Shown piece after piece: positions 31,335 to 38,551 of a stretch of DNA of 45,630 bases. Source of the stretch: an uncultured Lachnospiraceae bacterium. Lineage in GTDB: Bacteria; Bacillota; Clostridia; Lachnospirales; Lachnospiraceae. The stretch's first letter is position 1. Each line of letters opens with the position of its first letter. Location: assembly GCA_946536155.1 (NCBI GenBank), contig CAMNEB010000004.1:1-45630 (forward strand), read 5' to 3'. The notes under the pieces are model-generated. The model searched no databases and was not told where the DNA came from. It saw only the letters and a program-made list of their open reading frames with translations. The position numbers were made by a program, and so were the translations under genes.

Positions 31335-31363
31335 TTGTACCTCGGATTGCAGTTTATTAAGAT
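31335..31363 (+). promoter_or_regulatory. Promoter for the DUF2974 gene and probably the atp operon
   Basis: TTGTAC (31335-31340), 17 bases, TAAGAT (31358-31363), 47 bases before the GTG start at 31410. It overlaps the divergent promoter. Confidence 0.55.
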
Positions 31364-31390
31364 AGTAACGGATACAGGTGTTTTTTTCAA
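31362..31390 (-). promoter_or_regulatory. Promoter for the small membrane protein
   Basis: On the - strand TTGAAA (31390-31385), 17 bases, TACTAT (31367-31362). Its -10 overlaps the -10 of the opposite promoter by two bases. Confidence 0.6.
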
Positions 31391-31409
31391 TATCGATCGG
31401 AGGAATGAA

Positions 31410-32609
31410 GTGCCTGATACCATACTTGAATACCTTGAAAAACACGGAGACGACGACTTTGCGTGCCTTCCCTTCGGAGAAGTCGATGCACTGATCCTGT
31501 CCCAGTTCTCATATCTTAAATTCGATCATTTTTTCCGGGAGAAGGACCCTGACGATCTGCACATGACCGCTCTTGACAGGATCATATCTTCCCCGGATTT
31601 CGATTCTCTTTTTTCAGATCTCAGATACGAAAAAAACAACAGAAAGCTCTTTGAACTGATGTCCCTCGGCAGGAGGTTTTCGGACCTTTCTCTCGGCGGC
31701 TATATGAACATCGTCGACAGAAAGAGGGATATACAGTTTTCCGCTGTCACGTTCTCTTTTCCCTCGGGCCCTTCGTTTGTGGCATACAGGGGAACGGATG
31801 AGAACATGGTCGGATGGAAAGAGGATTTTAACCTTTCGATCTTAGACCGGATACCCGGCGAGGAAGAGGCGGTAAGGTATCTTGAAAAGGTATCGGGAAG
31901 CCTGAGCGGAAGCTTTTATGTGGGCGGCCATTCAAAGGGCGGCCTGCTTGCCGTATATGCATCTTCTTTAGTGCCAGATCTGATAAAAGAGCGTATAATA
32001 AACATATATTGTTTTGACAGTCCCGCCATCAGAGAGGATATACGCGTAAGGACGGGTTATCCGCTCATAAGGGACAGAATCCTTAAGTATGTTCCACAGA
32101 GCTCTCTCATAGGCATGATCTTCGAGACGGATGACATCTATCATGTGATCAGGAGCTCTGCTCTCGGAGTCCTCCAGCACGATCCCTATACCTGGGTGGT
32201 CAGGGATACCGCATTTGAACCAAGGCCCGCTCTCGATAAGAGCGCCCAGATAGTGAACGGATCGGTCTCAAAGTGGATAGGGGAGCTGGATACCGAAGAG
32301 AGGAGCCACTTCATCGACATAATCTTCAAAGTGGCGGATGCCTGCGATGAGGACGATCTTGTGTCCATCAGCTTAAATCCCATCAGGAATCTGAGGCAGA
32401 TGCTTGACGGATATGAGGAGATGGCGGAAGGGGAGAAACAGTTCCTCAAACAGGTCATAAACGGTCTTGCAAAGGAGACAGAAGGCAATGCCGTAAATGA
32501 GATGCATTCGGGTTTTTCCGAATTCATCGAGAGCGTGGACAGGTGGATCGAAAAAGAAAAAAGCCGCCGGGGTATAACCTATGGAACGCATAGCAGAAGA
32601 GATACTTGA
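31410..32609 (+). CDS. DUF2974 (Mbeg1-like) alpha/beta hydrolase
   Basis: A lipase-fold protein of 399 residues. The start is GTG 31410, six bases after GGAGG, giving a usual DUF2974 beginning (TILEYLEKHGD and then PFGEVDALILSQFSYL). FVAYRGTDE (near 149) is the oxyanion-side strand and GGHSKGG (near 197) holds the nucleophilic Ser. SPAI and later Asp/His are plausible triad partners. The substrate is unknown. The last 29 bases overlap atpB, so the two are translationally coupled and it leads the ATP synthase transcript. Confidence 0.85.
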   Translation: MPDTILEYLEKHGDDDFACLPFGEVDALILSQFSYLKFDHFFREKDPDDLHMTALDRIISSPDFDSLFSDLRYEKNNRKLFELMSLGRRFSDLSLGGYMNIVDRKRDIQFSAVTFSFPSGPSFVAYRGTDENMVGWKEDFNLSILDRIPGEEEAVRYLEKVSGSLSGSFYVGGHSKGGLLAVYASSLVPDLIKERIINIYCFDSPAIREDIRVRTGYPLIRDRILKYVPQSSLIGMIFETDDIYHVIRSSALGVLQHDPYTWVVRDTAFEPRPALDKSAQIVNGSVSKWIGELDTEERSHFIDIIFKVADACDEDDLVSISLNPIRNLRQMLDGYEEMAEGEKQFLKQVINGLAKETEGNAVNEMHSGFSEFIESVDRWIEKEKSRRGITYGTHSRRDT

Positions 32610-33270
32610 ACAATTGCAGACGGAAGATGCCTTCTCGGTTGAGATAATGGGCAGGACGATCGGGATATCCGAATCCGTTGTCGTCAGCTGGGTGGTCATC
32701 GGAGTCGTCTTTATAGTGTGCAACATCCTGACAGCGGGAATGAAAGTCAGGAATATCTCCAGAAGACAGGCCCTGGCTGAGTTTCTTGTGGAGAAGGGCG
32801 AGAACCTTGTACTCGGAATGGTGGGTGAAGAGGGTGAAAGATATGTGCCATACCTTTTTTCCGTTCTGATATACATCGGTTTTTCCAACTGTATCGGACT
32901 GTTCGGATTCAAGCCCCCCACCAAGGATATGAACGTCACGGCGGCTCTTGCGATAATGAGCATCATACTGGTGCAGGCCGCGGCCATCAGGAAGAAGAAC
33001 ATCGGTGGATGGCTGAAGAGCTTCACAAAACCCGTGGCTCTGGTAACGCCCATCAATATCCTCGAGCTCGGCATCAAGCCGCTTTCGCTGTGCATGCGAC
33101 TCTTCGGAAACGTTCTGGGCGCATTTGTCATCATGGAGCTTTTGAAGGCAATAGTACCTGCCGTCGTGCCTGCGGTATTTTCACTGTATTTTGATATCTT
33201 CGACGGATTCCTTCAGGCTTATGTATTTGTATTTCTTACAGGAATGTATATAAAAGAAGCACTTGAATAA
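32581..33270 (+). CDS. atpB: F0 ATP synthase subunit a
   Basis: The stator channel subunit that works with the c ring. 229 residues with about five hydrophobic segments. The essential arginine sits in PLSLCMRLFGNVLGAF (near 170), and the last helix has FDGFLQAYVFVFLTGMYI. The N-terminus overlaps the DUF2974 gene. No atpI gene precedes it. Confidence 0.96.
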   Translation: MERIAEEILEQLQTEDAFSVEIMGRTIGISESVVVSWVVIGVVFIVCNILTAGMKVRNISRRQALAEFLVEKGENLVLGMVGEEGERYVPYLFSVLIYIGFSNCIGLFGFKPPTKDMNVTAALAIMSIILVQAAAIRKKNIGGWLKSFTKPVALVTPINILELGIKPLSLCMRLFGNVLGAFVIMELLKAIVPAVVPAVFSLYFDIFDGFLQAYVFVFLTGMYIKEALE

Positions 33271-33515: not shown

Positions 33516-33523
33516 GGTGAGTG

Positions 33524-34000
33524 ATGCTCAGATTTGATATAAATCTTTTGTTTACCATCATAAATGTACTTCTTCTCTTTGCGGTGGTTAAGCTGTTTCT
33601 GATAAAGCCCGTCCATAAGATCCTCGACAAGCGCAGACAGGATGTGGAGGAGAAATACGATGAGGCCGACAAAATGACGGCAGAGGCCATGGAGAGCAGG
33701 AAAAAATACGAAGATTCGATAAATGATATCGAATCCGAGAAGGAGCGCCGTTTCACCGAGGCCAAGAACCAGGCTGCGGGTGAATATGAGAGGCTGATGG
33801 AGCAGGCCAGGAAAGAATCCGGCAAGATCATCGATCAGGCGCGCAAAGAGGCAGAAGAAGAGAGACAGATCAGGCTCCGCAGGGCAAATCAGGAGATCAC
33901 GGATATGGTCGCCAAGGCAGCGGAGAGGATCGTTACTGCCGATCAGAGCGAAGAGATGGACAAAGAGCTCTATGACAGATTCCTTGAGCAGGCTAAATAA
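33524..34000 (+). CDS. atpF: F0 ATP synthase subunit b
   Basis: The peripheral stalk subunit of 158 residues. One membrane span (about 8-25) is followed by a long, highly charged coiled coil (about 40-150), as usual. ATG 33524 is used, after GAGGTGA; a GTG is three bases earlier. There is no delta-like extension at its end, in contrast to the b-delta fusions of mycobacteria. Confidence 0.93.
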   Translation: MLRFDINLLFTIINVLLLFAVVKLFLIKPVHKILDKRRQDVEEKYDEADKMTAEAMESRKKYEDSINDIESEKERRFTEAKNQAAGEYERLMEQARKESGKIIDQARKEAEEERQIRLRRANQEITDMVAKAAERIVTADQSEEMDKELYDRFLEQAK

Positions 34001-34014
34001 GGGGGAGCAGGGTA

Positions 34015-35787
34015 ATGGCTAAAAAACCCGGATTCCAGGTTGTCCTGTACTATGTGACTCCGCCCTCCGCAGAGCAGCTTCAGGGTATCTGGAATTTTGT
34101 ACTCAGCAAATATGTAAACGACGAAAGAAGCGCCGACGATATTAATTTTTCGGTTGAGGCCGATGAATCTCTCGGCGGCGGTTTTATATTAAAGTGCGGG
34201 AATGAGGTCTATAACTGGAGCACCAGAGGACGTCTGGGACAGTTCAACGAAAAGCTCCAGGCCATAAGACGAAAGGTGGGAGCCGATGAGGATGTAATAT
34301 CGATCCTCAAGACTACAGCAGACGAATTCAGGCTTACCGCAAGATTCAGAAGATCCGGATATGTGGTCTCCGCAGGTGACGGTATCGCCAGGGTAAAGGG
34401 ACTCGAAAGAGCAGAATACGGCGAGATACTTATTTTTTCCAGCGGTATAAAGGGGATGGTCATGGATATCCGCAGGGAGGACTGCGGTGTCATCCTCTTC
34501 GGCAAGGATACCGAGATAAGGGTCTGGGACGAGGTGGCAAGGACCGGAATGAGAGCCGGCGTGCCCGTGGGGGATGCACTTCTCGGAAGAGTCCTGAATT
34601 CACTGGGTGAGCCCATAGACGGAGGCAGGGATTTTGAAGCGGAAGGCTTCAGGCCCGTTGAGAATCCCGCACCCTCCATCATATCCAGACAGCCCGTCGA
34701 TACTCCGCTTGAGACGGGAATACTTTCAATCGATTCAATGTTCCCCATCGGCAGAGGCCAGAGGGAACTCATAATAGGCGACCGTCAGACGGGAAAGACC
34801 TCCATTGCCCTTGATACCATCATCAATCAGAAGGGCAAGGGAGTTAAGTGTGTATATGTGGGTATCGGACAGAAGGCATCCACCATCGCACAGCTTGTGT
34901 CGACGCTCAGAAAAGCGGGGGCCATGGATTATACCGTTGTGATCTCATCGACCGCATCGGATCCCGCACCCCTTCAGTATATCGCACCTTATTCGGGAAC
35001 CTCGGTTGCCGAGTTTTTCATGCATAAGGGAGAGGATGTCCTCATAGTATATGATGATCTCTCAAAGCATGCCGTGGCATACAGATCACTGTCGCTGCTG
35101 CTTGAGCGAAGCCCCGGACGTGAAGCTTATCCCGGCGATGTCTTTTACCTCCATTCAAGACTGCTTGAGAGGAGTGCAAGACTCTCCGATGAGGAAGGAG
35201 GCGGTTCCATCACCGCGCTTCCCATCATCGAGACACAGGCCGGAGACGTTTCGGCATACATCCCCACAAATGTCATTTCCATCACCGACGGACAGATCTA
35301 TCTTGAGAGCGACCTGTTCTTCCTGGGTGTAAGACCCGCGGTAAATGTCGGTCTTTCCGTATCCAGAGTCGGCGGTGCGGCACAGACCAAAGCCATGAAG
35401 AAGGCATCGGGATCTGTCAGGATTGACCTTGCCCAGTATCGTGAGATGGAGGTCTTTACACAGTTTTCATCGGATCTTGACGATGCCACCAGAAACCAGC
35501 TCCGTCACGGAAGGCTTCTGATGGAACTCCTGAAGCAGAAGAACGGTCATCCCAGGTCCATGGTGGACCAGGTCATAATGCTGACCGTTGTCAATTCGGG
35601 CGTCATAGATTCGATCCCGGTGGAGCAGCTGAGGGATTTTCTGGATATTTATCTTGAGAAGATAAAGGAAGAAGAGAAGAGCATAGTAAACGATATCGAG
35701 ATGATGGGTACGCTCAGTGATGACGAGAAGTATTTCCTCGTCAAACGTGCGGAGGATCATCTGGCTGAATTTATGAGCATCAGGTAA
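34015..35787 (+). CDS. atpA: ATP synthase alpha subunit with an N-terminal delta (OSCP) C-terminal-domain-like fusion
   Basis: The alpha subunit forms the F1 hexamer with beta. The core from about residue 93 is normal: YVVSAGDGIARVKGL, then the P-loop GDRQTGKTSIA (near 257) and the C-terminal helical domain. In front are about 85 extra residues: VTPPSAEQLQGIW, VEADESLGGGFILKCGNEVY and STRGRLGQFNEKL. These follow the pattern of the delta C-terminal domain (PLSEEQ, VDPxLIGGxxVRIGDxxYDGSVxxRLxxL). No separate atpH gene lies between atpF and atpA, where it normally sits, and the delta N-terminal bundle is absent. The total of 590 compares with about 500-510 in the family. GGGGGAGCAGGG is the SD. 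Confidence 0.94.
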   Translation: MAKKPGFQVVLYYVTPPSAEQLQGIWNFVLSKYVNDERSADDINFSVEADESLGGGFILKCGNEVYNWSTRGRLGQFNEKLQAIRRKVGADEDVISILKTTADEFRLTARFRRSGYVVSAGDGIARVKGLERAEYGEILIFSSGIKGMVMDIRREDCGVILFGKDTEIRVWDEVARTGMRAGVPVGDALLGRVLNSLGEPIDGGRDFEAEGFRPVENPAPSIISRQPVDTPLETGILSIDSMFPIGRGQRELIIGDRQTGKTSIALDTIINQKGKGVKCVYVGIGQKASTIAQLVSTLRKAGAMDYTVVISSTASDPAPLQYIAPYSGTSVAEFFMHKGEDVLIVYDDLSKHAVAYRSLSLLLERSPGREAYPGDVFYLHSRLLERSARLSDEEGGGSITALPIIETQAGDVSAYIPTNVISITDGQIYLESDLFFLGVRPAVNVGLSVSRVGGAAQTKAMKKASGSVRIDLAQYREMEVFTQFSSDLDDATRNQLRHGRLLMELLKQKNGHPRSMVDQVIMLTVVNSGVIDSIPVEQLRDFLDIYLEKIKEEEKSIVNDIEMMGTLSDDEKYFLVKRAEDHLAEFMSIR

Positions 35788-35792
35788 AGCGG

Positions 35793-38106
<2,314 letters not shown>

Positions 38107-38110
38107 CTTT

Positions 38111-38551
38111 ATGAGCAAGACCTATCATCTGAAAATCCTGGCAACGGATAAGACGTTTTATGACGGAGATGTCATTTCTCTGAGTATCCCCGCATTTGAC
38201 GGTTCTTACCAGATACTTGCCGATCATGAACCTGTAGTAATGGCCCTTAAGGAGGGAGTCCTCCGTTTCAGGTATTACGACGAGAATCATAACGAGGTGA
38301 TGAAGCTCGGAGTGAGCGGCCTCGGGCTTGTCAATATCACGAGAGATGGGGTCATCGTCCTTGTGGATTCGGTGGAAGCACCGGAGGATATAGATACCAC
38401 GAGAGCGCAGGAAGCCTTAAGGAGAGCGATGGAGCAGCTCCGCCAGGACCAGAGCATCCAGGAGTATGAGATGAGCAGGGCTTCGCTGGCCAGGGCGATG
38501 CTCAGATTGTCCCAGGCAGGAAATCCCTTTGACGGATACGGGGATAAGTAG
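38111..38551 (+). CDS. atpC: ATP synthase epsilon subunit
   Basis: Caps the rotor and regulates hydrolysis. 146 residues: an N-terminal beta-sandwich (LKILATDKTFYDGDV, SLSIPAFDGSYQILADHEPV) and a C-terminal helical hairpin with a charged EAPEDIDTTRAQEALRRAM. It starts 4 bases after atpD and ends the operon. No clear terminator follows. Confidence 0.94.
   Translation: MSKTYHLKILATDKTFYDGDVISLSIPAFDGSYQILADHEPVVMALKEGVLRFRYYDENHNEVMKLGVSGLGLVNITRDGVIVLVDSVEAPEDIDTTRAQEALRRAMEQLRQDQSIQEYEMSRASLARAMLRLSQAGNPFDGYGDK

Follow-up and report, generated by a model that had tools for sequence, protein, structure and literature searches.

A delta C-terminal domain fused to the ATP synthase alpha subunit in Lachnospiraceae: a candidate natural enzyme with several b-docking sites

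The window, a stretch of 45,630 nucleotides from an uncultured Lachnospiraceae bacterium (assembly GCA_946536155.1, contig CAMNEB010000004.1), carries a whole atp operon, all on the plus strand, in the order a-c-b-[deltaC-alpha]-gamma-beta-epsilon, and its atpA gene encodes the C-terminal domain (CTD) of the delta subunit together with the alpha subunit in one open reading frame (ORF). F-type ATP synthases are assumed to carry a single peripheral stalk and a single a-subunit, with the c ring alone fixing H+/ATP. We read the window's enzyme as a natural deltaDeltaN-alpha F1Fo-ATP synthase, predicted to be of the H+ type and to offer several docking sites for subunit b; we put the probability of this reading at about 0.58.

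An earlier note made from the letters of the window had proposed that a delta-like domain precedes alpha, and this was borne out. Residues 30-81 of AtpA matched PF00213 at profile positions 121-172 with 26.3 bits (cut-off 22.3, E 8.9e-6), while residues 92-575 matched the atpA model TIGR00962 with 718.9 bits (cut-off 484.45). A profile was built from 28 fused N-termini, each of which matched PF00213 individually (28 of 28), and was compared with the PDB and with free deltas. The PDB search returned the engineered fusion chain 9jc1_I first (3.4e-9), followed by free delta/OSCP chains (2.3e-7 and weaker), and hhalign against free deltas gave a probability of 96.6% over delta columns 105-172. The structure check that the note had suggested agreed: the predicted fold of AtpA residues 1-88 resembles the C-terminal domains of delta/OSCP. 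Furthermore, window AtpA residues 12-545 align with 9jc1_I; of 69 matching PDB sequences 60 were listed, and in these 9jc1_I is the only chain whose match begins before residue 91. The alignment of the 28-sequence profile continues through the junction of 9jc1_I; in the model of the window protein a helix spans residues 94-110 of the junction, in a low-confidence part of the predicted structure. Thus the N-terminus of AtpA is confirmed as a delta/OSCP CTD fused to alpha.

The N-terminal domain of delta is missing from window AtpA, since PF00213 is covered from 121 to 172 only and the protein begins at residue 1 of the fused domain. The gap of 14 bases that separates b from alpha is too short for atpH and also for a delta N-terminal domain. 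No separate full-length delta was found in the window operon, and the sole PF00213 match on the contig is the fused one, so that the proposed absence of the N-terminal domain from the operon was upheld. Alpha, beta, gamma, epsilon, a, c and b all exceed curated cut-offs of F-type ATP synthase models, b by PF00430, with other b models below theirs (e.g. TIGR01144, 52.9 vs 65.5). The covalent link between alpha and the stalk that the note had envisaged is supported, as are its three delta-like domains per F1, provided that the product is not processed.

This architecture was already described in 2025, and the window is a further natural example of it. In Bacillus PS3, Ueno et al. deleted the N-terminal domain of delta and fused the rest to alpha (Nat Commun 16:5410, PMC12229609). 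The resulting enzyme has as many as three stalks and a-subunits and works at an unusually low driving force. SDS polyacrylamide gel electrophoresis of this enzyme showed 2.2-fold a and 1.8-fold b, H+/ATP was 5.8 vs 3.0, and the authors argue that the delta N-terminal domain, seated on the threefold axis of F1, restricts the stalks to one. The engineered deltaDeltaN-alpha enzyme (PDB 9JC1) resembles the window's in having the delta CTD at the N-terminus of alpha and no delta N-terminal domain. It differs in that its epsilon C-terminal domain was removed, that it was made in E. coli and that its stalks and H+/ATP were measured. The same text mentions natural delta-alpha fusions in Acidaminococcus fermentans and in UniProt G4Q3K6 and A0A1I2C5T3 as awaiting test; by the authors' description the A. 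fermentans fusion lacks the delta N-terminal domain as the window's does. In the open-licence literature that we searched, as far as it was available, natural cases were described in PMC12229609 only and a stalk test of a natural enzyme was not found.

The likeness to the engineered PS3 chain argues for three docking sites, and probably for more than one stalk, in the natural enzyme; the note had stopped short of this likely consequence, several stalks and a-subunits in one enzyme. The delta N-terminal domain, the presumed one-stalk limiter on the threefold axis of F1 in ordinary enzymes, would have been lost here, and each F1 would offer three equal sites for b. Docking of b on the fused domain is very probable. 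On the analogy with PS3 we favor, by a narrow lead, recruitment of more than one b2-a stalk; the number of ions per ATP would then rise, and ATP could be made or ions pumped at low proton motive force.

A comparison with related Lachnospiraceae operons, proposed in the note, showed that the fusion is widespread. When 299 genomes of the family were searched with the N-terminal 101 residues of window AtpA (E <= 1e-3), 112 matched, many of them through free deltas, and 67 appeared fusion-like at first. Once the operons were fetched, 62 proved to be true fusions and the remaining five to have a separate delta in the same operon. The fusion was CTD-only in 41 of the 299 genomes, the window's included; in 20 of the 62 fusions a nearly full delta stands ahead of alpha, its PF00213 match starting at profile positions 5-27. 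In the last one, G068, b, the delta CTD and alpha form a single frame of 787 codons (L130 1752-4085). These four counts (62, 41, 20 and 1) are lower bounds. No further b above the PF00430 cut-off was found in the G068 genome, and the b-deltaC-alpha frame was not found in the other 40 genomes of a search among G068's relatives, none of which belongs to its genus. All seven genes were recognised in the window's order in 39 of the 41 CTD-only operons, the others lacking a recognised a (L103) or c (L109). Named carriers of a fusion include Lachnospiraceae bacterium P6A3, which has the window-type gene, Lachnospiraceae bacterium JC7 and MA2020, Oribacterium parvum and O. sinus.

The fusion extends beyond the family. 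At least 45 of 391 genomes of the class had a match in a long frame free of stops, and at least 42 matches, from 19 family codes, lay within fetched operons with alpha in the same frame. Beyond the class, five fusions were found among 348 genomes of the phylum (G961, G856, G755, G712 and G771). In G712 and G322, each assembled as a single contig, a count of PF00213 matches at E <= 0.01 showed none besides the fused one. The fusions of another family (code f45; L195, L198 and L203-L207) are CTD-only with a much longer stretch from delta to alpha, and on the alpha tree they branch separately from the fusions of the window's own family.

Some peculiarities of these genomes are recorded in their own right. 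A PF00213 match interrupted by stops in G062 was set aside as a candidate for a hidden delta N-terminal domain and overlaps the end of b in b's frame; a similar match in G137 also overlaps the end of b, in a frame that differs from b's. The fusion frame of G400 (L182 2088-4004) carries at its N-terminus three tandem copies of a stretch of about 21 residues. Two genomes have gamma and beta in one frame free of stops (L183 4060-6450 in G423 with 797 codons, L185 4086-6491 in G549 with 802), which would be a rotor-stator fusion unless an internal Met restarts beta. Matches to rnfC occurred in 53 of the 62 fusion genomes, 51 of them above the cut-off; from this count, made among fusion genomes alone, nothing is concluded on Rnf as a correlate.

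The fused domain is conserved. Of 11 pairs in the window's group, the 10 with a computable dS gave it an omega of 0.04-0.08, compared to 0.03-0.07 for the alpha core; the cleanest pair (L143/L144) gave 0.071 for the fused domain at a dS of 0.46, while several pairs were saturated. Purifying selection thus acts on the fused domain with about the same strength as on alpha. Two residues, P17 and F57, do not vary across 28 diverse sequences, and Q21, F28, G56, Y66, D67, W68, S69 and Q76 are kept in at least 90%; the window has N at position 67.

Trees were calculated from the alpha core with the fused domain left out, two quick ones of 109 and 69 rows and a careful one of 23 rows, chosen afterwards. 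On the 109-row tree the four states require 16 changes, and at least four for the CTD-only form are forced by starred branches; the 69-row tree gave the same figures. The 23-row tree requires seven changes, four of them forced, and becomes worse by 114 log-likelihood units when the CTD-only forms are constrained to one group (p-AU 2.5e-6). The CTD-only forms therefore are not one clade and have more than one origin on the tree. Loss of the delta N-terminal domain after fusion is the likely direction, the tree itself being without one. Of six operons that have a separate delta, five share one frame between delta and alpha; the alpha frame opens directly after the delta stop in four of the five. 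Thus the loss of a stop codon would be an easy route to fusion.

Several observations weigh against an enzyme with several stalks. The nearly full delta-alpha fusions keep the N-terminal domain, and hence fusion alone does not amount to several stalks; because the axis can hardly accommodate three nearly full deltas, fusion is evidently tolerated in an enzyme that probably has one stalk. The b-deltaC-alpha gene of G068 yields three b per F1, vs six for three b2 stalks, and allows at most one b2 and one b. The fetched stretches hold at most one a and one b gene each, with no extra dosage. The delta of a second operon in the window's genome (see below) could in principle dock on the window enzyme, and alpha may still be trimmed. 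Even among the engineered PS3 particles seen by cryo-electron microscopy, 15, 51, 26 and 8% had 0, 1, 2 and 3 stalks, i.e. about half had a single stalk and only 8% had three (PMC12229609). Apart from the second delta and the trimming, these points agree with a single-stalk enzyme, in which the fused domain is a tether, one copy holds b2 and two stay empty, resulting in a stronger or cheaper stator with the same gear. Yet a mere tether does not explain the repeated CTD-only origins on the tree, and the biochemistry of the engineered enzyme points to roughly two stalks and to twice the H+/ATP according to the same text (PMC12229609). We consider a single-stalk enzyme rather unlikely, but it is the strongest of the alternatives.

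If an internal start or proteolysis freed alpha from part of the chains, mixed alphas would build a conventional enzyme with one stalk, in which delta is supplied in cis. Indeed, the junction holds an in-frame ATG, GTG or TTG in 46 of the 62 fusion genes, 16 of these with a Shine-Dalgarno-like string of four or more bases upstream. However, in the other 16 of the 62, including L071 of the window's genus, the stretch from the final delta helix to the alpha barrel has no such in-frame start codon, and the positions of the start codons are not conserved among the 46. The window junction, the only region inspected for this purpose, has one in-frame GTG, no ATG or TTG, and no Shine-Dalgarno-like string at that GTG. 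Mixed alphas are therefore improbable.

The window's genome, a draft of 2.2 Mb in 197 contigs that is 83% complete, harbors a second whole F-type operon on another contig (C85; L138 1-8825) in the order a-c-b-delta-alpha-gamma-beta-epsilon. It encodes a full delta (PF00213 1-172, E 1.1e-42). Na+-binding c rings have a Gln in helix 1 and an E-(S/T)-T..Y set in helix 2. By comparison of the c subunits, that of the window (GVSLGIATAK / AEATAIY) lacks the Gln and does not show the Na+ motif, while that of the second operon (GVGQGIAAGH / AETTGLY) has the Gln and the ETT..Y of Na+ rings; we predict from these sequences that the window enzyme is of the H+ type and the C85 enzyme of the Na+ type. Thus atpH is absent from the window operon but not from the genome: the full-length gene that the note had named as evidence to the contrary exists, yet it belongs to another enzyme because it sits in the second, Na+-type operon. 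On contigs C6 and C34 (L003 and L008) the genome has two further PF00006 frames of 468 and 713 aa. A joint reading that adds a fused enzyme beside an ordinary Na+ enzyme in window-like genomes, and for G068 a b fixed at three, implying single-b stalks, is tentative.

A second, unfused alpha is present in the window's genome and in 22 others of the 41 CTD-only genomes, and in such two-enzyme genomes the free delta of the other ATP synthase might serve both enzymes, leaving the fused domain a remnant. A same-genus genome of 10 contigs and 99% completeness (G116) likewise holds a fused and an unfused alpha, the full delta adjoining the unfused one, and G141 even has three F-type alphas: a CTD-fused one, one of the same lineage with a separate delta, and a third that is unfused (L104, L135 and contig C34). 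The other 18 CTD-only genomes, however, carry one F-type alpha only (E <= 1e-100), and no additional delta above the cut-off was found in 17 of them. Fifteen of the 18 are of good quality (at least 90% complete, at most 5% contamination), and 14 of these had no additional PF00213 match above the cut-off, any others being weak (E of 0.011 or higher); in the remaining one, G168, a free delta lies at the edge of a contig. In G293 the fused domain itself also falls below the PF00213 cut-off. Since the fused domain is moreover selected about as strongly as alpha, a remnant is very improbable. A chimeric contig, frameshift or missed stop in the window's draft genome was rejected as practically excluded, because the fusion recurs in independent genomes: the same gene is present in G116 (fused domain 88% identical) and in named records, Lachnospiraceae bacterium P6A3 among them, and related fusions occur in single-contig genomes.

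The design differs from the b-delta fusion of mycobacteria and Gordonia (PMC5709465; PDB 7jg5), as the note had supposed. Delta is covalently tied to a stator subunit in both; in the mycobacterial type it is joined to b, whereas in the window its C-terminal half is joined to alpha and b is a separate gene of 159 aa, which rules out the b-delta type. N-ATPases, an alternate form of F1Fo, likewise have an operon without atpH according to PMC5709465, but their gene order is unlike the window's. Membership in this group was rejected, because window alpha scored 597.1 vs a cut-off of 750.5 for TIGR03324 and beta 619.6 vs 752 for TIGR03305. Published operons recorded as lacking delta have been read as partial, chimeric transcription units, with the fused domain unmentioned in the text available; they probably are of the same kind as the window's. 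The spread in Lachnospiraceae, the nearly full delta-alpha and b-deltaC-alpha fusions and the repeated origin were not found in the open-licence literature searched; PMC12229609, in the part consulted, names neither these two fusion types nor Lachnospiraceae.

Features of the atp operon and the adjoining intervals, with positions in the window
Feature	Position	Strand	Basis
atpB, a subunit	32581..33270	+	PF00119 148 bits; NF004486 301.1 bits, cut-off 272
atpE, c subunit, 73 aa	33294..33515	+	PF00137 53.8 bits; TIGR01260 46.9, cut-off 43.95
atpF, b subunit, 159 aa, own gene	33521..34000	+	PF00430 55.9 bits, cut-off 28
b-alpha gap, 14 bases, purine-rich GGGGGAG	34001..34014	+	direct reading
atpA-type fusion gene (delta C-terminal domain + ATP synthase alpha subunit), 590 aa, one ORF	34015..35787	+	TIGR00962
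delta/OSCP C-terminal domain, AtpA residues 1-86	34015..34272	+	PF00213, hhalign, fold match, omega
junction = linker + alpha N-terminal helix, DEDVISILKTTADEF	34273..34359	+	direct reading
atpG, gamma subunit	35793..36719	+	TIGR01146 269.7 bits, cut-off 194.45
atpD, beta subunit	36703..38106	+	TIGR01039 803.7 bits, cut-off 462.85
atpC, epsilon subunit	38111..38551	+	TIGR01216 72.7 bits, cut-off 67.25

Two overlaps in the operon suggest translational coupling. The start of atpB lies within the end of an upstream ORF (31335-32609, overlap 32581-32609), and the start of beta overlaps the end of gamma (36703-36719).

Separate delta, nearly full delta-alpha, CTD-only and b-deltaC-alpha form a natural series in which the claim that the N-terminal domain limits the number of stalks can be tested. 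If the CTD-only enzymes do carry several stalks, the one-stalk rule would fail in about one seventh of the sampled genomes of the family (41 of 299); fermenters whose ion pumps are weak could then make or spend ATP at low force.
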